This document shows, one piece after another, positions 33,790 through 42,781 of a stretch of DNA of 64,000 nt. The notes beneath the pieces were generated by a model that was not told where the DNA came from, did no database searches, and worked only from the letters and a program-made list of their open reading frames with translations. The DNA comes from Kangiella profundi. GTDB lineage: Bacteria; Pseudomonadota; Gammaproteobacteria; Enterobacterales; Kangiellaceae. The number at the start of each line of letters is the position of its first letter. The stretch's first letter is position 1. The translations under genes and the position numbers were made by a program. The stretch lies in NCBI RefSeq assembly GCF_002838765.1, contig NZ_CP025120.1, positions 930,001 to 994,000 on the forward strand, read 5' to 3'.

Positions 33790-34500
33790 GTGCGCGCAAA
33801 AGTCATTAGTTTTGTCCAAATGAAAGGTGGGGCAGGTAAAACCACTTTATGTGCCAATATTGCCTCAACTTTGTCTGATAAAAGCAAAGTCCTGATGATC
33901 GATACTGATCATCCACAAAGCTCTCTCGAAACATGGTATCGTGTCCGCGACGAGCAGTATCTCATTGAAAACATGGATGTTGTATCATCCAAGAACCTTG
34001 CACACCTGCAAAAGCAAGTTCGTGAGAATACTGATTTATATGATTACATCCTGATAGATGGACACCCAAGGATCACAAATCTAACCAGGGCAGTTGTCCT
34101 ATTGTCTGACCTGGCGCTTATCCCTCTCAGCCCTTCGCCAATAGAAGTCTGGTCAACAAAACATCTTGCAGAAATAGTTGATGAAGCTAGGGGATTGAAT
34201 CCTAATTTGGAAGCCAGAATTTGCTGGAATCGTTACCGTGTTAGAACTAACTCTGCGGACAATGTTGTTGCAAACGCTAAGCAGGAGTTAGGAATGGAAG
34301 ACTTTCCAACAAAACTAGGTAACCGAGTAGCTTATCTAGACTCTTTTGCCGAGGGATTGACTGTAGCAGAATGGCATGACCCTGCAGCAAAGCTTGAAAT
34401 TTGGTCATTAACTTCAAATATAGAACGACTAATATCTCAGCTTCCTAAGTCCAGACTTAAAACTGAAAACCAGGTAGATAGGTTTGCTAAGGGGAAGTAA
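33790..34500 (+). CDS. Orphan ParA/MinD-superfamily ATPase
   Basis: This 236-aa protein has the deviant Walker A KGGAGKTTL with the signature Lys, IDTDHPQSS as switch I, and YDYILIDGHPR as Walker B. ParA-type ATPases dimerise on ATP and position plasmids, chromosomes or protein machines. There is no ParB-like gene next to it, so it is not a normal partition pair. The start is a GTG at 33790, right before the conserved MRAKVISFVQMKGG stretch. It sits between the pilus clusters and the trp promoter; a role in placing pili or another envelope machine is only a guess. Confidence 0.88.
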   Translation: MRAKVISFVQMKGGAGKTTLCANIASTLSDKSKVLMIDTDHPQSSLETWYRVRDEQYLIENMDVVSSKNLAHLQKQVRENTDLYDYILIDGHPRITNLTRAVVLLSDLALIPLSPSPIEVWSTKHLAEIVDEARGLNPNLEARICWNRYRVRTNSADNVVANAKQELGMEDFPTKLGNRVAYLDSFAEGLTVAEWHDPAAKLEIWSLTSNIERLISQLPKSRLKTENQVDRFAKGK

Positions 34501-34550: not shown

Positions 34551-34579
34551 TTGACCCTGAAAATAAATTGGTTTAGATT
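34551..34579 (+). promoter_or_regulatory. trp superoperon promoter
   Basis: TTGACC (34551-34556), a 17-nt spacer and TAGATT (34574-34579). The predicted transcription start, about 34586, falls at or one base before the ATG of leader peptide 1. I see no TrpR-type operator here. Confidence 0.65.
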
Positions 34580-34586
34580 GCAAGAC

Positions 34587-34634
34587 ATGAATATGAATAT
34601 CGCACAAAACATCTGGTGGTGGCACGTTACTTAG
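34587..34634 (+). CDS. trpL: trp leader peptide 1 (WWW)
   Basis: The 15-codon frame MNMNIAQNIWWWHVT, stop TAG (34632-34634) with a second TAG right after, has three consecutive Trp codons at 34614-34622. Trp is the rarest residue in most proteins, so this run in a short frame next to trp genes is diagnostic of an attenuator leader. No Shine-Dalgarno is visible. The predicted transcript starts almost on the ATG, so it may be translated as a leaderless mRNA, as described for trpL of Sinorhizobium meliloti; the second ATG (34593) is an alternative. Confidence 0.85.
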   Translation: MNMNIAQNIWWWHVT

Positions 34635-34710
34635 TAGCGGGCCTTTTGTTGTTTGTAAGATATTAATACGACACAAGAATTTAAGAAGCCCGCAAAAGCG
34701 GGCTTTTTTT
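34635..34710 (+). promoter_or_regulatory. trp attenuator 1 (antiterminator/terminator switch)
   Basis: GCGGGC (34637-34642), two bases after the leader stop, is perfectly complementary to GCCCGC (34688-34693). That second segment is also the 5' arm of the terminator AAGCCCGC-AAAA-GCGGGCTT (34686-34705), which ends in seven T. The two pairings are mutually exclusive. A ribosome that finishes the leader would cover 34637-34642 and allow the terminator; one stalled on the Trp codons would leave it free to form the antiterminator. No strong pairing partner upstream of the first segment is evident, so this looks like a three-segment attenuator. Confidence 0.85.
34686..34710 (+). terminator. Attenuator terminator 1
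   Basis: AAGCCCGC-AAAA-GCGGGCTT hairpin followed by a T-run, upstream of the structural genes. Confidence 0.92.
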
Positions 34711-34775
34711 ATGCCTAGAGCAACTGGATAAAGTAATAGCAGATATATACGACAACTGAAACTGAGAAATTAACT

Positions 34776-34835
34776 ATGACAATACCTGCAAAAATTAAAT
34801 CATTCCTAACGACAAACTGGTGGTGGTTCGACTAG
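34776..34835 (+). CDS. trpL: trp leader peptide 2 (WWWF)
   Basis: A second short frame, MTIPAKIKSFLTTNWWWFD, has three consecutive Trp codons (34818-34826) followed by a Phe codon and stops with TAG at 34833-34835. A weak GAG-type ribosome site lies about 8 nt before the ATG. The CTGGTGGTGG core matches leader 1 exactly, pointing to a tandem duplication that has since diverged. The frame is in a region otherwise without genes and ends directly at a G-rich antiterminator segment. Confidence 0.87.
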   Translation: MTIPAKIKSFLTTNWWWFD

Positions 34836-34892
34836 GGCGGGGTATTGTCTTTTGAAAGACGATAAAGCCCGCCATTGCGCGGGCTTTTTTTA
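34835..34892 (+). promoter_or_regulatory. trp attenuator 2 (antiterminator/terminator switch)
   Basis: GGCGGG (34836-34841), immediately after the leader 2 stop, is perfectly complementary to CCCGCC (34868-34873), which overlaps the 5' arm of the terminator AAAGCCCGC/GCGGGCTTT (34864-34872/34879-34887). The design is the same as attenuator 1, so RNA polymerase must pass two Trp-dependent decisions in a row before reaching the DAHP synthase gene. Confidence 0.85.
34864..34892 (+). terminator. Attenuator terminator 2
   Basis: AAAGCCCGC-CATTGC-GCGGGCTTT hairpin followed by a T-run, 82 nt before the DAHP synthase start codon. Confidence 0.92.
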
Positions 34893-34973: not shown

Positions 34974-36008
34974 ATGATTATTATTCTTCGACCAGATGCT
35001 TCCGAGCAAGATGCACAGGAGATACTTCAGAAGATCGATACTGCAGGTTTGAAACCTTTGCATATGCCAGGGGTTGAGCGAACCGTTATTGGTGCTCTTG
35101 GAGATGAGCGAGTGCTGGAATCACTACACCTTGAGAATTTGCCCCAAGTAGATTTAGTAAAGCCGGTACTGAGCAAGTACAAGCTGGTTAGCCGTGAAAT
35201 TTATGCCCAGGATACTGTAGTGCAGGTAGGCAACACTCCGGTTGGTTCTGAGCAATTTGCAATAATGGCCGGGCCTTGTGCCATTGAAAGTGAAGAGCAG
35301 CTTCTGGAAACGGCTCGTTATGTCAAGAATGCCGGCGCTACAGTTTTACGTGGTGGCGCATTTAAGCCTCGAACCAGTCCATACTCGTTTCAAGGCTTAG
35401 GTGTTGAAGGCTTAAAAATCATGTCACAGGTTGGCAAGGAAGTTGGGCTCGATACCATCACGGAGCTGATGGATGTGAATGACCTGGATGATGTTGCTCG
35501 CTATATCTCTGCTATTCAAATCGGTGCGCGAAATATGCAGAACTACACATTACTTAAAGCGGTGGGAGAGACGCAGAAACCGGTTTTGCTAAAGCGTGGC
35601 TTGTCGGCAACAATCGAGGAGTTATTACTGGCCGCAGAGTATATTGTTGCCAGTGGTAACCCGAATGTCATGATTTGCGAACGTGGTATCCGGACATTCG
35701 AAACCGCTACACGAAACACACTTGACCTTAATGCTGTCGCCTTTATCAAAGAACGTAGTCATCTACCTGTAATCGTTGACCCATCACATGGCACCGGTGT
35801 TCGTACTCTTGTTTCCCCTATGGCAAAAGCGGCTGTTGCCTGCGGTGCAGATGGGGTTATTGTTGAGTGCCATAGAAGCCCAAAAGAATCTGTGTCTGAT
35901 GCGGCTCAAGCGCTATCTCCACAAGATTTCCATACATTGATGCAGCAACTTGCACCTTTCGTTGCAGCAAGTGGCCGTACTCTGGCGGAGGTGGCTCGTG
36001 CAAGTTAG
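34974..36008 (+). CDS. 3-deoxy-7-phosphoheptulonate (DAHP) synthase, type I-beta
   Basis: The 344-aa enzyme condenses PEP and erythrose 4-phosphate, the first step of the shikimate pathway. Catalytic stretches are [41 protein letters not shown] and IVDPSHGTG. The N-terminal 75 residues form a ferredoxin-like regulatory domain, as in the Thermotoga-type I-beta enzymes, unlike the AroF/G/H I-alpha enzymes of E. coli. A GAGG lies 8 nt before the ATG. Being first behind the two attenuators, it is presumably tuned to Trp supply. Its 3' end overlaps the trpE start. Confidence 0.95.
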
Positions 36009-37587
36009 TACCTTAACTAAAAAGCTACCATTGTCTTTGCTCCCCAGTGAGGTTTACGGTCTTCTGACACATAATGGGCAGAAAGCACATACGGTTTTAT
36101 TAGAAACGGCAGAGCCGGGTACTCAGAAAAGCAAAAGAAGTATTAGTATGGTATCAGCCGCAGCCATTATCGAAGGTGTTAATGGCACCGTTACTATTTC
36201 TAGTCTGAACGACAACGGAGCAAGCTTCATCAAGGAATTAAGTAACGATAGCCACAATATTCAAGGCTTTAATAAAGATGTTGCCGATAGCAGAGTGACT
36301 TATTCAATTAAGCAGACTAGTGATGAACTGATCAGTGAAAGTCAGCGTCTGGTTCAGCAGACCATTGCTGATGTTCTCTTCTACATTGTTGAGCAGATAA
36401 AGAGTCATCAAAAAACAGATGATGCCAGTTCCTGCTTAATTGGAGCAATGAGCTTTGATCTGATTGACCAGTATGAATCTTTGCCTGATATAGAGAAGGA
36501 CTCTCCTGACTTCAGATTCTATTTAGCGGATCAGTTGGTTATACAGGAAGATGATTCACAGACCGCTAAAATTATCGTCAAAGGATTTGCTGACAATGCT
36601 CACAACACAATCCGCCTAGGTACGGCAATTGATGCGATTGAGAAAAGGTTACACTCTTCGCAAGTTTCCCCGTCTTTAACCGCAAGTTCAAACAATCCGC
36701 GCTCAATAAGTTTACGTGACTCAGACTTTGCACCAGATGTTAGCGATGATGTATTTGCCGATAATGTTGGCAAAGTAAAACAGCACATTATTGAAGGTGA
36801 TGCCTTTCAGGTAGTTTTATCAAGAACATTCGTTGCCGATTGCCCTGATGCATTCAAGGCCTATCAGGTGTTACGTCAAAGTAATCCAGGCCCTTATATG
36901 TACTACATTAATAATGGCAAAAGTCAGCTATTTGGATCCAGTCCAGAGAGCGCATTAAAGGTTTTTGATAGCAATAAAGTTTCACTTTACCCCATTGCAG
37001 GAACCAGAAAGCGTGCATTCAATTCAGACTCTTCAATTAATTTTGAGCAGGATGCAAAAACAGAGTTTGAATTAGTTAGCGATGAGAAAGAGAGTGCTGA
37101 ACATATGATGTTGGTTGACCTGGCTCGTAATGATTTAGCAAAGGTTATCAAGGTTGGCAGTCGCCAGGTCACACAGTTGAAAAGAATTGTTAAGTATTCC
37201 AATGTCATGCATATGGTTTCAGAAGTCATTGGAGAGCTGCGTGATGACATCCATCCCATGCATGCTTATAGAGCCTGCGCCAATATGGGAACTTTGACTG
37301 GTGCTCCTAAAATTAAAGCCGTTGAATTAATTCGTCACATAGAGAAAAAGCCTCGAGGCTTTTATGGAGGGGCGGTTTGTATTTATAACGCTAATCAAGA
37401 GTTCGATAGCGCCATTATTATCCGTTCTGCAGAAGTCATTGATGGCAAGGCTTACGTATCTGCTGGCGCTGGAATTGTCTATGACTCTGTTCCAGAACTT
37501 GAAGCCAATGAAACTCGGCATAAAGCCATGGCGGTACTCAATGCCTGCTTAGTTGCACAGCGTGAAGATGAGGAGGCTGCAGCATGA
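35998..37587 (+). CDS. trpE: Anthranilate synthase component I
   Basis: TrpE makes anthranilate from chorismate with ammonia delivered by TrpG. Seen are the N-terminal Trp-feedback region with VLLETAEP (LLES in E. coli), GSSPESALKVF, PIAGTRKR, DLARNDL, GTLTGAPKIKAVE and SAGAGIVYDSVPE. The GTG at 35998 is taken as the start: GGAGG lies 6 nt upstream and the 529-aa length fits. A TTG at 35950 would add residues encoded inside the DAHP synthase gene. It overlaps both neighbours (11 nt upstream, 4 nt downstream). Confidence 0.96.
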   Translation: MQVSTLTKKLPLSLLPSEVYGLLTHNGQKAHTVLLETAEPGTQKSKRSISMVSAAAIIEGVNGTVTISSLNDNGASFIKELSNDSHNIQGFNKDVADSRVTYSIKQTSDELISESQRLVQQTIADVLFYIVEQIKSHQKTDDASSCLIGAMSFDLIDQYESLPDIEKDSPDFRFYLADQLVIQEDDSQTAKIIVKGFADNAHNTIRLGTAIDAIEKRLHSSQVSPSLTASSNNPRSISLRDSDFAPDVSDDVFADNVGKVKQHIIEGDAFQVVLSRTFVADCPDAFKAYQVLRQSNPGPYMYYINNGKSQLFGSSPESALKVFDSNKVSLYPIAGTRKRAFNSDSSINFEQDAKTEFELVSDEKESAEHMMLVDLARNDLAKVIKVGSRQVTQLKRIVKYSNVMHMVSEVIGELRDDIHPMHAYRACANMGTLTGAPKIKAVELIRHIEKKPRGFYGGAVCIYNANQEFDSAIIIRSAEVIDGKAYVSAGAGIVYDSVPELEANETRHKAMAVLNACLVAQREDEEAAA

Positions 37588-38198
37588 AGGCGTTACTCAT
37601 CGATAATTTTGATTCGTTTATCTATAACCTTGACTATGAGTTGCAACAATTAGGCTTCGAGGTGACGGTTGTTCGTAACGATGCTGATTACGATTTTGTC
37701 TCAGAAAAAGCTCACGATTCAGACTGTGTCGTATTATCACCTGGCCCAGGCAAACCTGCTGATGCTGGATGTTGTCCACAGTTGCTAAATGACTTTAAGG
37801 CTATCAAACCTATTTTGGGAGTCTGCCTAGGTCATCAGGCAATCGTAGAAAGCTTTGGCGGTGTTGTCGAAAAAGCTCAGCAAGTGGTTCATGGCAAGGT
37901 TTCTAATCTTAAACTGAAAGAAGCGTCAGCCCTATTCAATGGAGCTACTACCAGTATCGTTGTTGCGCGATATCATTCATTGGTTGCGACCAAAGTCCCC
38001 GATGAACTTTTAGTTACGGCAACCGCCGATGATGAAGTCATGGCTGTGCAACACATCAAGCATCCAATCTATGGTCTGCAATTTCATCCCGAAAGCATTA
38101 TGAGTGTTGTAGGCCACAAGTTACTCGAAAACTTCAAAACGATTGTTGCTGACTTTTCCTCTACTTCAAAAGGAGCTAGCCATGATGCAGTTGCTTGA
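37584..38198 (+). CDS. trpG: Anthranilate synthase component II (glutamine amidotransferase)
   Basis: The 204-aa class I glutamine amidotransferase gives ammonia to TrpE. The triad is visible: Cys in LGVCLGHQ, His and Glu in QFHPESI. LLIDNFDSFIYNL and SPGPGKP are typical. It is a separate gene, not fused to trpD as in E. coli, and starts with an ATGA overlap on trpE. The family also serves p-aminobenzoate synthase, so it may be shared between Trp and folate synthesis. Confidence 0.95.
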   Translation: MKALLIDNFDSFIYNLDYELQQLGFEVTVVRNDADYDFVSEKAHDSDCVVLSPGPGKPADAGCCPQLLNDFKAIKPILGVCLGHQAIVESFGGVVEKAQQVVHGKVSNLKLKEASALFNGATTSIVVARYHSLVATKVPDELLVTATADDEVMAVQHIKHPIYGLQFHPESIMSVVGHKLLENFKTIVADFSSTSKGASHDAVA

Positions 38199-39189
38199 AT
38201 CAATCTATCAGGGTGACAGTCTCAATTACGCTCAAGCTACAGAGTCATTCCAAGCTGTTTTAAAGGGGCAGGTTGAAGCTCCCGTTGTGGCAGCCATGTT
38301 GGCGGCACTAAAGACCAAAGGTGAGACAGTAGAAGAAATTGCGGGAGCTGCCTATGCACTACGACAGGAAGCTGTTGCATTTCCACAACGTGACTATCTG
38401 GTCAGTGATTGCTGTGGAACGGGTGGGGATGGTTTAAACACCATCAACGTTTCAACCATTGTCAGTATTCTGGCTGCCACGGCTGGCGTCAAAATGGTCA
38501 AGCATGGTAATCGATCAGTCTCGTCGAAATGTGGTTCTGCCGATCTCATGGAGCGCTTAGGTGTCAATATTCATCTAAATCCACCTAAAAGTAAGAAGCT
38601 GCTAGATGACACGAATTTTTCATTTCTTTTCGCGCCGGATTACCACCCAGGAGTGAAGCATGTCATGCCTGTCAGACAGTCGCTAAAAACCCGCACTATT
38701 TTTAATTTGATTGGGCCGCTAGCTAACCCTGCACTACCCGAAGTTCAGTTACTCGGTGTATACGATAAGCAATATTGTCGTCCGTTTGCTGAGATATTGA
38801 AAATACTGGGAGCAAAAAAAGCGTTGGTGGTTCACGGTTCTGGGTTGGATGAAGTGGCAGTTCATGACTCAACATATGCGGTTAGTTTGGATGATGGCAA
38901 TATTGAAGAGTTACATTTAACTCCAGAAGATTTTGGCATTAGTCGGCACAGTATTGCCAGCATTCAAGCCGATAGCATTGACGATAACGTTCAATCCGCA
39001 ATCAATTTACTACAAGGAAATGGCCCAGAAGCCCATCTTGATATGGTCGCAGTCAATTGTGGTACTTTGTTGGTTTTGAACGGACTTGCCCATGATTATA
39101 CAACGGCGACCCACACTGCAAAGGAACTCTTGAGAAGCGGCAAGGCATACGAGCAGTTACAGCTAATCAAGGAGGCCTCCTATGCTTAA
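38182..39189 (+). CDS. trpD: Anthranilate phosphoribosyltransferase
   Basis: This enzyme transfers phosphoribose from PRPP to anthranilate. The PRPP loop CGTGGDGLNTINVST and VKHGNRSVSSKCGSADLMERLGV are diagnostic. The start is at ATG 38182, with AGGAG 6 nt before it, inside the trpG end. The 335-aa length is normal. It overlaps trpCF by 8 nt. Confidence 0.96.
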   Translation: MMQLLESIYQGDSLNYAQATESFQAVLKGQVEAPVVAAMLAALKTKGETVEEIAGAAYALRQEAVAFPQRDYLVSDCCGTGGDGLNTINVSTIVSILAATAGVKMVKHGNRSVSSKCGSADLMERLGVNIHLNPPKSKKLLDDTNFSFLFAPDYHPGVKHVMPVRQSLKTRTIFNLIGPLANPALPEVQLLGVYDKQYCRPFAEILKILGAKKALVVHGSGLDEVAVHDSTYAVSLDDGNIEELHLTPEDFGISRHSIASIQADSIDDNVQSAINLLQGNGPEAHLDMVAVNCGTLLVLNGLAHDYTTATHTAKELLRSGKAYEQLQLIKEASYA

Positions 39190-40642
39190 CGTTCTTGAAA
39201 CTATTTTGCAGCACAAGCGTGAGGTGATTGGAAACACGCCGGATTTTAATGAGCTTGCACCAAGTCAGCGTAGCTTCTATGACGCCCTAAATCAGCCGCA
39301 TTATGGGTTTATCATGGAGTGCAAAAAAGCGTCTCCTTCAAAAGGACTGATTAGAGAAAGTTTCGACATTGAGCAAATTGTTCCAGTATATGACCAATAT
39401 GCTGATGCAATTTCTGTGTTGACTGAGGAGCGTTTTTTCCGAGGTAGTTTTGCAAACTTGGCGAAAGCTCGTCTATTAACGGACAAGCCCATACTATGCA
39501 AAGATTTTATTCTTACACCAAAACAGATTCGACAGGCGCGCCACTTTGGTGCTGATGCCGTTTTACTGATGCTCTCTGTTCTGAATGACCGTGATTATCA
39601 AGCATGTTATGAACAGGCCAGTTCATTAAATATGGACGTGCTGACAGAGATTCATACTGAAGCTGAGCTTGAAAGAGCCATTCAATTAGGTGCCAAAATT
39701 ATTGGCATTAATAATCGTAACCTGAAAGATTTATCCACCAGCTTTGAGCATACCAAACAGCTTGTCGATAAGGTGCCTGGTGATCGTTTAATTATTACTG
39801 AGTCGGGCATTTCTACTCATAGCGACGTACTTGAACTTTCCCAGTTTTCTGACGGCTGCCTGGTAGGGTCTAGCCTGATGAAGGAAGCTGATCTTGAGTG
39901 CGCTGCAAGGCAACTCGTTTATGGTGATATTAAGGTTTGTGGAGTTACCCAACAATCTGACGCTACAAAACTCGAAACACTACCAGCCAGCTCGATAGGC
40001 ATCATTTTCGCACCATCTTCTAAACGGCGCGTAAGCGACACCATTCAAACATCCCAAAAGCCATTGGTCGGTGTATTTCAAAATCAGGAAACTGATGAGG
40101 TGGTATCCAAAGCGTTGCAATACCAACTTGACGCTATTCAGTTGCATGGCGATGAAACATTAGAGTTCGCAGAGACTATTAGACAGCAACTTCCCGCGCT
40201 TAAGATTTCTAAGGTTTTTCATGTTAGCTCTGAAGTTTCGAAGGATGAATTGGTAAGTGAGTTAGAACACCTGCTTGAGCACTATGATGAAATCTTATTA
40301 GATTCTATAAGTGGCGATGGTGAGAAAATTCAACGTGGAGGAACTGGCGTAACTTTTGACTGGTCATTACTTCAGGGCATTGAGTCAGAGTTATTGACGA
40401 ATAATATACGTATCGCCGGTGGTGTCAGTTCGGCGAACATTCAACATCTTAAAGGAATGGGAATTACTAAGCTCGATCTTTCCAGTTCGGTGGAGTCGAG
40501 CCCTGGCATTAAAAGCCATGACTTACTGACTGATTTCTTTGTTTTGGCCAGGCCACAGTCGGGTCGCAAGTCTTTCAATTCAATCGCAACTCATTTAGAC
40601 AAGCGGTCTACTGAAGTTGTAGCAACAGGAGTTTCTTCATGA
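39182..40642 (+). CDS. trpCF: Bifunctional indole-3-glycerol phosphate synthase / phosphoribosylanthranilate isomerase
   Basis: The 486-aa fusion has IGPS in residues 1-250 ([37 protein letters not shown]) and PRAI in 255-460 ([36 protein letters not shown]). Both barrels look intact. The fused form, as in E. coli TrpC, is typical of enteric-type gammaproteobacteria. AAGGAGG precedes the ATG. Confidence 0.95.
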
Positions 40643-41850
40643 ATCAAAAAGTTAATACGCCAACTAATTTTGAATTTGAAGGTGCTTATATTGGTCAGTT
40701 TGGAGGGCAATTTGTACCTCAATTACTGATGCCTGCGTTACAGCAACTCCATAATGCATTTGAAGCATCGTTGTTGGATAACGACTTTCAAACTGAGTTA
40801 AAGCGTTTACTTAAAGAGTATGCCGGTCGGCCAACACCTGTCACTGAATGCACCTCTTATGCACGTATTAATCAGTCGCGAATATTTCTTAAGCGTGAAG
40901 ATTTATTGCATGGTGGCGCCCATAAAACCAATCAGGTTCTTGCCCAGGCTTTATTGGCAAAAAAAATGGGTAAGCATCGAATTATCGCTGAGACCGGTGC
41001 TGGTCAGCATGGAGTAGCAACGGCTTTGGCTTGTGCACTCTTAGGCCTTAGGGCGACTATTTATATGGGTAAAAAAGACTGTGATCGACAGGCCCCAAAT
41101 GTGTTTCGAATGCAACTGATGGGGGCCGAGGTTATTCCTGTCGACAACGGTAGTGCCAGCTTAAAAGATGCGATTAATGAAGCGCTGCGTGACTGGGCTT
41201 CGAGCTATGAAACCACTCATTATCTGTTAGGAACCGTTGCTGGACCGGCACCATTTCCAAAGATGGTTCGTACCTTCCAGAAAATTATTGGTGAAGAAGC
41301 GAAACAGCAGATGAAGCAGTTAATCGGTCGATTACCAGATGCTGTGATTGCCTGTGTCGGTGGTGGTTCAAATGCAATTGGTATCTTTGCCGATTTTATT
41401 AAGGATGAGCAGGTGCGGTTAATTGGAGTAGAGCCTGCCGGTAAGGGGCTTGATACCAATGCCCATGGGGCAACTTTATTGAAAGGACAAGAAGGTATTT
41501 TGCATGGTGCCAGAACCTATGTCATGCAGGATAAAGAAGGGCAGGTACAGGAGTCACACTCAGTTTCTGCCGGGTTAGACTACCCAGCAGTTGGACCTGA
41601 ACATGTTCATTTAATGACATCGGGTAGAGCAGAGTATGTATCGGTGACTGATGAGGAAGCTCTCGAGGCTTTTCAGGAGCTTTCAAAAAGTGAAGGGATT
41701 ATTCCTGCATTAGAGTCATCTCATGCCTTAGCTTATGCCAAGAAACTGGCAGCAGAATCAACAGAACCGCTTAATATTTTAGTGAACCTGTCTGGTCGTG
41801 GTGATAAAGACCTTGCTCATGTCATGAACATACTAAATCCATCAAATTAG
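40639..41850 (+). CDS. trpB: Tryptophan synthase beta chain
   Basis: The PLP enzyme joins indole and serine. The PLP Lys is in [11 protein letters not shown], the phosphate loop is GGGSNAIG, and [22 protein letters not shown] is typical. The 403-aa length fits the TrpB1 type, which works with TrpA. It begins with an ATGA overlap on trpCF. Confidence 0.97.
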
Positions 41851-41875
41851 CGTTGACAAGTAATGAGAATTTAAA

Positions 41876-42781
41876 ATGAGATATAAGAAATTATTTAACG
41901 GCTTAAAAGAAAGAAACCAGCTTGCCTATATACCATTTTTACTGCTTGGCGATCCTTCTGAGGAACTTTCGTTAAAGCTCATCGATACGCTGGTTAACAA
42001 TGGTGCTGATGCTTTAGAGCTGGGTTTTGCATTCTCTGACCCAGTCGCCGATGGTCCTGTCATTCAGGCCGCCAGCCTTCGACCATTGGAAAATGGCTTT
42101 AGTGTTGATGATGGATTTAATTTGATTGCTAAGGTTCGCGCCAAATACCCTAACTTACCAATAGGTATATTAACTTATGCCAACCTAGTATTTGCACCTG
42201 GTATTGAGCAATTTTATGATAAGGCAGCACGTTCTGGTGTGGATTCGGTGCTTATTGCCGACTGTCCCGTGGAAGAAAGAGAGTTATTTTCTGGTTCTGC
42301 CAGTAATTGTGCCATTGACACTGTGTATATTGCTCCACCGGATGCCAGTTCTTCGAGTTTGGAATTAATTGCTAGTAACAGCCAGGGATATACCTATGTG
42401 TTGAGTCGAAAAGGTATCACTGGTACTGAAAATAGTCAGCAGGAAACTGGCACCGACTTGATTAAACAGCTTAAGCAATTACAGGCACCACCTCTCGTCC
42501 AAGGGTTCGGTATCTCAAAGCCAGAACATGTGCTACAGGCTGCAAAGGCCGGAGTGGACGGAATAATTACTGGGTCAGCCATAGTTAACTTGATCAATGA
42601 GCATTATAATACGCCGGATAAAATGTTAGATTTAGTGGCCGAATACGCTAGAACTATGTCTGACGCGGCACATAATGCACGCCATCAACTAAAAATGGCG
42701 CACACAATTGAAAAAGGCTCACACTATGTCGATAGCAGAAACAATCAAGCAGCAGCTGCTGGAAATGGAGCAGCAAGTTGA
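41876..42781 (+). CDS. trpA: Tryptophan synthase alpha chain with C-terminal extension
   Basis: TrpA cleaves indole-3-glycerol phosphate to indole. The catalytic Glu and Asp are in ALELGFAFSDPVADGPVIQ, and SRKGITGTE and VQGFGISKPEHV follow. At 301 aa it is about 30 residues longer than E. coli TrpA. The extra tail (from about NARHQLKMAHTIEKGSH on) ends in a Gln/Ala-rich stretch that is encoded over the start of yfcL in another frame. The tail is probably a by-product of lost stop position and not functional. Confidence 0.95.
   Translation: MRYKKLFNGLKERNQLAYIPFLLLGDPSEELSLKLIDTLVNNGADALELGFAFSDPVADGPVIQAASLRPLENGFSVDDGFNLIAKVRAKYPNLPIGILTYANLVFAPGIEQFYDKAARSGVDSVLIADCPVEERELFSGSASNCAIDTVYIAPPDASSSSLELIASNSQGYTYVLSRKGITGTENSQQETGTDLIKQLKQLQAPPLVQGFGISKPEHVLQAAKAGVDGIITGSAIVNLINEHYNTPDKMLDLVAEYARTMSDAAHNARHQLKMAHTIEKGSHYVDSRNNQAAAAGNGAAS

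Follow-up and report, generated by a model that had tools for sequence, protein, structure and literature searches.

The aroG-trp leader of Kangiella profundi raises the question of whether a bacterium can place two tryptophan attenuators one behind the other on the same RNA, and of what such a pair would do for the control of the operon. A single trpL attenuator is common, ribosome stalling at Trp codons favours antitermination, and the E. coli trpL RNA is built on alternative 1:2, 2:3 and 3:4 pairings; trp attenuation is the textbook circuit of one switch plus a repressor. We analysed a window of 64,000 nucleotides (NZ_CP025120.1, positions 930,001 to 994,000; coordinates below are positions in the window) from the 2.65 Mb, one-contig genome of this member of the genus Kangiella, together with loci (L), genomes (G) and families (f) of its relatives. 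From sequence and folding, the leader very probably consists of two successive trpL-type, ribosome-mediated transcription attenuators served by a single promoter.

Two probable attenuator units precede aroG

The leader occupies about 390 nt between a ParA-like gene and aroG (Table 1). The preliminary description of this DNA had claimed two short frames with three Trp codons each, and terminators whose 5' arms are complementary over 6 bp to a G-rich segment 0-2 nt past the leader stop; both leaders and both segments (GCGGGC in unit 1, GGCGGG in unit 2) were found as described. Region 3 of unit 1 (34688-34693) is complementary to region 2 over 6 bp, and in unit 2, where the 2:3 complementarity is also 6 bp, the terminator loop begins at the sixth base (34873). 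The terminator core GCCCGC/GCGGGC is identical in the two units. A simple terminator scan listed terminator 2 and not terminator 1, probably because the stem of the latter runs into its own U-tract; folds and dedicated leader scans show terminator 1.

Table 1. Features of the aroG-trp leader and its surroundings (cells, paired positions over aligned loci)
Feature	Position	Strand	Support or remark
ParA-like gene upstream of the leader	33790-34500		163 bits, below the NCBIfam cut-off
Putative promoter: -35 TTGACC, 17-nt spacer, -10 TAGATT	34551..34579	+	consensus match 9/12
Leader ORF 1 MNMNIAQNIWWWHVT, ATG 34587 to TAG 34634, Trp codons 34614-34622	34587..34634	+	
Unit 1, possible 1:2 pairing GGC.CGUUAC / GUAGCG.GCC (Trp codon 3, stop and region 2)	34621..34643	+	full-length fold without ribosome; 96.7% of cells paired, 20 sequences
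Unit 1, region 2 GCGGGC (antiterminator 5' arm), 2 nt past stop 1	34637..34642	+	120/120 cells paired
Unit 1, terminator: region 3 arm AAGAAGCCCGC, loop, region 4 arm, U-run (stem 34683-34708)	34683..34714	+	160/160 cells paired
Leader ORF 2 MTIPAKIKSFLTTNWWWFD, ATG 34776 to TAG 34835, Trp codons 34818-34826	34776..34835	+	
Unit 2, region 1 GACAATAC (within the opening codons of leader 2), able to pair with 34842-34849	34778..34785	+	90.4% of cells paired, 13 short-leader loci
Unit 2, region 2: GGCGGG (34836-34841, 0 nt past stop 2) + GTATTGTC; partners region 1 or extended region 3	34836..34849	+	
Unit 2, extended region 3 GACGATA...CCCGCC (antiterminator 3' arm)	34858..34873	+	
Unit 2, terminator AAAGCCCGC-CATTGC-GCGGGCTTT + U-run (stem 34864-34887)	34864..34892	+	104/104 cells paired; one pair changed on both sides
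aroG, 3-deoxy-7-phosphoheptulonate synthase, operon gene 1	34974..36008	+	NF006421 482 bits, TIGR01361 384 bits, both over cut-off
trpE, trpG, trpD, trpCF fusion, trpB, trpA	35950..42781	+	each over a cut-off of its family; trpE start TTG 35950 is a mechanical frame start, perhaps too early

Folded alone, units 1 and 2 were more stable than their shuffles (z = -2.9 and -3.7). Of 40 Kangiella units, 37 had a region-2/region-3 duplex better than dinucleotide shuffles (p ≤ 0.05), the other three being the second units of L002 (p = 0.077), L004 (p = 0.060) and L015 (p = 0.333). The genome contains 85 TGGTGGTGG sites; at both leader sites the sequence lies in a short Trp ORF with a terminator behind it, a combination present at none of the 20 sites tested (20 of the 85, some loci overlapping). 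Against the Rfam Trp_leader model (RF00513) the units scored 25.8 and 23.8 bits, with a gathering cut-off of 41, and other leader models scored about as well. No Rfam element reached gathering in the window; a T-box or other Rfam element was rejected, as no T-box match was listed and the weak sub-threshold matches were unspecific.

A probable single promoter and a probably leaderless first leader

Promoter-like matches in the scan occur overall at chance level; the pattern TTGAC(C/G)-17 nt-TANNTT nonetheless stands at the leader 1 site in all 20 Kangiella loci. There the leader 1 ATG follows the -10 box by 6 nt (8 loci) or 7 nt (12 loci, the arrangement in the window at 34574-34589), a spacing that should put the transcription start on the ATG or a few bases from it. 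Leader 1 is thus probably leaderless, and the trp transcript would have no 5' untranslated region. Upstream of leader 2, by eye, many Kangiella loci show a purine-rich sequence just before the start.

This geometry would also suit a different function for unit 1, namely that its chief product is a short RNA or peptide, leaderless and acting in trans like rnTrpL/peTrpL of Sinorhizobium meliloti, and that attenuation is left to unit 2: with the ATG 6-7 nt after the -10 box in 20/20 loci, the 5' end of the terminated RNA would coincide with the ATG or adjoin it, as that of rnTrpL does according to the available part of its description (PMC7298713). We regard this as highly improbable, however, since unit 1 has the full attenuator anatomy and the conserved part of its peptide mostly overlaps the 1:2 hairpin.

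If each unit had its own promoter, the two attenuators would act in parallel rather than in series, and a promoter-like sequence (9/12 match) does lie at 34776-34803. Yet the scan gave 4 such matches with 4.2 expected in shuffles, and in consensus scans of the 20 Kangiella loci no promoter-like score between the units rose above shuffles, the best being reached by at least 26% of them. The space between the units is moreover short in several loci; in L011, L014, L016 and L020 the first in-frame start of leader 2 comes just 11-24 nt after the U-run. A parallel promoter for unit 2, without support in this 20-locus scan, was rejected, and we consider the two-promoter arrangement extremely improbable. 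As no promoter is evident between the units, both most likely lie on one RNA and act in series.

Ribosome position and the choice between alternative folds

Secondary-structure prediction of the leader had been proposed with the preliminary description. Folds in which a ribosome footprint was set either over the Trp codons or over the stop gave the outcomes expected of an attenuator at the stage before the terminator 3' arm is made. With nascent RNA ending at region 3 and the ribosome at Trp 1-3, the expected number of 2:3 pairs was 8.0 in unit 1 and 5.9-6.9 in unit 2, and it fell to 0.00 in both units when the ribosome footprint covered the leader stop. Computationally, then, each unit has an antiterminator that excludes the terminator and becomes inaccessible once the ribosome stands at the leader stop.

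At full length the balance depended on the unit. Unit 2, folded from 34711, was dominated by the antiterminator with the ribosome at Trp 1 or 2 (5.3-5.6 vs 1.7-2.0 pairs) and by the terminator with the ribosome at Trp 3, and in unit 1 the terminator was more stable at every ribosome position. Antitermination must therefore be largely kinetic, and in unit 1 a race. When the whole leader was folded with unit 1 antiterminated, the full-length RNA favoured the unit 2 terminator even when a ribosome sat on the first Trp codon of leader 2.

The 1:2 pairing potential is kept in both units (unit 1, 20 sequences; unit 2, 13 short-leader loci) with weak covariation. Without a ribosome, 2:3 still formed in RNA reaching region 3, with 7.9 (unit 1) and 6.4 (unit 2) expected pairs, so that in the fold model 1:2 gives no protection before region 4 is made; in unit 2 it led, with 10.6 pairs, only when unit 1 was forced into the antiterminator. 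The unit 1 1:2 helix contains one compensatory cell, and that of unit 2 is better paired than slid controls (34-62%). In the 2:3 helix of unit 2 no pair has changed on both sides, and 8 of 13 sequences break two pairs of the extension. Because most pairs are invariant within Kangiella, covariation there is weak, too thin to serve as proof of the helices.

The mechanism that these folds suggest is the classical one, run twice. When charged tRNA-Trp is scarce, the ribosome translating either leader would wait on the Trp codons, leaving region 2 free to pair with region 3 and block the terminator; when Trp is plentiful it would reach the stop and cover region 2, region 3 would pair with region 4, and transcription would end. 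The 1:2 pairing may contribute after the ribosome has departed. RNA polymerase would have to pass both units, read-through being approximately the product of two Trp-dependent probabilities, and control may then be multiplicative or steeper, in line with the steeper response to charged tRNA-Trp inferred in the preliminary description.

The two switches could also be coupled rather than merely consecutive: in an antiterminated unit 1, region 4 (GCGGGCUUU) is set free and could capture region 3 of unit 2, so that the first read-through favours the second. Forcing unit 1 into 2:3 indeed gave 8.4-8.6 expected cross-unit pairs before region 4 of unit 2 was made, with leader 2 carrying no ribosome or one at its stop (3.8 with a ribosome at Trp 1). 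However, the hairpin of unit 2 wins at full length, identical cores alone would yield such pairing, and the complementarity is lost in L007-L010 and L012 (ACCCGC in unit 2, GCGGGC in unit 1) as well as in L023, L024 and L026 (ACGGGC in unit 1). Possible in the fold and not conserved between loci, cross-unit coupling was rejected and is unlikely.

Both units are conserved in Kangiella and beyond

The preliminary description had read the leader as two trp attenuators in series and would have counted a lack of conservation in close relatives as a refutation. No such refutation emerged, and two attenuators, apparently in series, are supported: two units are present in all 20 Kangiella loci and in further relatives, and in each of the 20 both units keep at least 2 consecutive Trp codons, the terminator and region 2. 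To that description the analysis adds a possible 1:2 pairing in each unit, the probably leaderless leader 1, the failure to detect TrpR and a variable second switch in relatives (below). Leader 2 is short in 13 Kangiella loci and long in 7 (L006, L011, L014-L016, L019 and L020); in the long type, region 2 lies inside the ORF shortly past the Trp codons, 23-42 nt before the ORF end.

Upstream sequence was available for another 16 loci of the family: 12 have two units with at least 2 Trp codons each, two have a one-Trp second leader (L021, L038) and two a single unit (L039, L043). These last four loci might suggest that only one unit works and that the other is a decaying duplicate. This is very unlikely, as the 20/20 Kangiella loci keep the parts listed above in both units and the terminator stems are retained throughout (160/160 cells in unit 1, 20 loci; 104/104 in unit 2, 13 loci), and a relic second unit was rejected on the intactness of both.

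Two successive units also occur in other families of the order, in 5 of 5 loci of f15, 3 of 3 of f14, 1 of 1 of f13 (where the second ORF runs through its terminator) and 1 of 1 of f4 (where the second terminator is imperfect), and are absent from the Ferrimonas-like f6 (0/3) and from f23 (0/1). Their presence in all Kangiella loci and in other families indicates that the arrangement reflects neither chance nor a recent duplication. Outside Kangiella, the 2:3 duplex exceeded mononucleotide shuffles (p ≤ 0.05) in 52 of 75 Trp-leader/terminator units, drawn from 56 loci (L021-L057 and 19 of 80 named loci) with single units and one repeated genome included. Helices persist despite cores that differ between families, with ACGGG/CCCGT in unit 1 of L023, L024 and L026 and GTGGG/CCCAC in L054; in unit 1 of L028 the ACGGG/CCCGT match is not kept. 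In a class-wide sample the AroG enzyme was found in 55 of 369 genomes, and upstream of 29 loci outside the order (one with 223 nt, one a partial match) no two Trp leaders each with a terminator were detected.

Several loci have leaders of their own kind. L053, L055 and L058, of the Aeromonas simiae type, carry one attenuator and then a short uORF (MKPMKLTWRWR...) before aroG, with no second terminator listed. L047 has a single unit with a Phe-rich leader containing one Trp codon (FYFFGWF, by eye), possibly sensing more than Trp, and L041 has a repeated unit in extra sequence between leader and aroG (-330 to -60). Two records, L077 (titled Marinobacter nauticus; groups with Ferrimonas on the AroG tree) and L086 (titled Acidobacteriaceae; aroG 69%, close to gammaproteobacterial), are perhaps mislabelled, contaminated or transferred.

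A candidate second switch of another kind in Thalassotalea and its kin

In family f7, aroG was found in 23 of the 147 genomes searched, and leader 1 with its terminator was kept in 23/23. In the second place all 23 carry a uORF, MLTTKVKSWFIWWLQPIYAG or a sequence near it, whose stop lies 28-38 nt before aroG in 20 of them, and a terminator follows it in none of the 23. Named Thalassotalea and Thalassomonas loci share these leader features. The peptide WF(I/M)WWL(Q/L)P(I/L)YAG precedes aroG or trpE in L031, L034, L036, L054, L056, L076, L080, L097, L138-L160 and L211-L214 (L144, L156 and L160 have longer spacers between uORF and aroG); in four f7 genomes lacking an aroG match at threshold it immediately precedes trpE, and three of these also have an upstream Trp leader. 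A search of 394 genomes across the order gave the peptide pattern in 9 and its reversed control in none.

Pairwise codon differences in the uORF core comprised 697 synonymous and 176 nonsynonymous changes, whereas 18% of single changes would be synonymous; the comparison covers 20 distinct core sequences (of 29), the pairs of which are not independent. Judging by its conservation, this second uORF looks like a nascent-peptide sensor of the arrest-peptide kind.

Two-unit leaders and the TrpR repressor

No TrpR (PF01371) exceeded the Pfam cut-off in the 37 genomes of the family (a partial match below cut-off in G015, none in G000), and it did so in 7 of 24 other genomes compared, 177 of 394 genomes of the order and 26 of 39 genomes traced from named loci. 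Among 87 labelled loci, all 54 with two units (including 10 with the alternative second uORF, L021 and L038 despite their single-Trp second leaders, L045 with an imperfect second terminator and L049 with a second ORF running through its terminator) lacked TrpR over cut-off, and 29 of the 33 with one unit had it, the one-unit label coming from a scan of 560-700 nt upstream and L079, L108 and L116 having a Trp ORF and terminator with no duplex better than shuffles.

On a quick AroG tree with several long branches, only 4 independent pairs stood on starred branches, for which the sign test was not significant; no pair contradicted the association. The tree leaves aside genomes with short upstream sequence (G029, G031, G048, G397), repeats of another genome's place (e.g. 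L058, L084, L085, L088, L090, L093, L094, L101), L138-L160, L082, L086, L087, L089, L091, the class-level loci and L096-L137 except L097, L108, L112 and L116. With so few independent changes the association with TrpR is suggestive only, and we offer as a hypothesis that the two-unit leader may substitute for the repressor.

Operator sites were scored against the TrpR consensus. A near-consensus TrpR operator (13-15 of 16) lies upstream of the leader at 18/18 one-unit loci of Vibrionaceae. None of the 11 loci with TrpR from the Ferrimonas-like, Natronospirales and sphingomonad groups has a clear operator: L048 scored 12 of 16, a value reached by 2.5% of shuffles, and the rest 8-11. At the scanned two-unit loci, the window's own included (L138-L160 lay outside the scan), operator matches were at shuffle level, except in L027 (12 of 16, reached by 4.5% of shuffles). 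A TrpR-repressed trp operon in Kangiella found no support, with no TrpR over cut-off in the family and an operator match at shuffle level in the window.

Discussion

Sequence and computation establish the anatomy of the Kangiella leader, its pairing potential, its ribosome-dependent folding, its conservation and the lack of an evident second promoter. To these we add, conditionally, that both leaders would be translated and that termination would depend on Trp. Like E. coli trpL, each unit combines a Trp-codon leader ORF, potential 1:2/2:3/3:4 alternatives and an intrinsic terminator before the trp operon; unlike it, Kangiella has two apparently serial units, the first probably leaderless, aroG as first gene and no TrpR found. 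These parts belong to a known mechanism, used twice in apparent series. Comparative studies of proteobacterial attenuators exist from the early 2000s, and our literature search, with most subscription papers outside its scope, found no description of a tandem ribosome-mediated trp attenuator; novelty of the tandem form is not proved.

T-boxes bind uncharged tRNA directly. A parallel is formed by the tandem T-boxes of Bacillota trp operons, which likewise place two serial tRNA-Trp sensors before trp genes; the part of the source available describes two contiguous T-boxes, with a digital, pseudo-cooperative response expected of such arrays (PMC12452182). In Kangiella, in contrast, the sensor would be a translating ribosome, and the host is a gammaproteobacterium. 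The Salmonella mgtCBR leader also contains two short ORFs with attenuation, which, in the excerpt used here, respond to ATP and proline (PMC3641672), whereas both Kangiella units carry Trp codons. Attenuation without transcription repression, on an RNA that begins with the trpL ATG, is found in Sinorhizobium meliloti; the available section describes one trpL, however, whose small RNA and peptide have additional functions in trans (PMC7298713). The rimP-leader of some Gammaproteobacteria has two tandem premature terminators and a potential antiterminator but serves another gene, and the accessible portion of its description mentions no Trp leader ORF (PMC2965389).

More broadly, it seems possible, although we hold it only tentatively and short of an even chance, that in a marine gammaproteobacterial branch a two-sensor trp leader replaces TrpR: sensor 1 would be a Trp-codon attenuator and sensor 2 exchangeable, an attenuator in Kangiella and other families and a nascent-peptide sensor (WF-I-WWL-x-P-I-YAG) in Thalassotalea, Thalassomonas and their kin, with Vibrionaceae relatives having a TrpR operator upstream of a single attenuator instead. 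The product of two switches would give a wide control range in an organism in which no TrpR was found. The sensitivity and dynamic range of attenuation have been treated in theory for single leaders, as far as the available part of that work goes (PMC1183508), and serial ribosome-read switches operating without TrpR would allow a direct test of both quantities for attenuators in series. Two-unit trp leaders, kept in several families, parallel the tandem T-boxes of Bacillota with different sensors, and suggest that RNA switches can replace a DNA-binding repressor.
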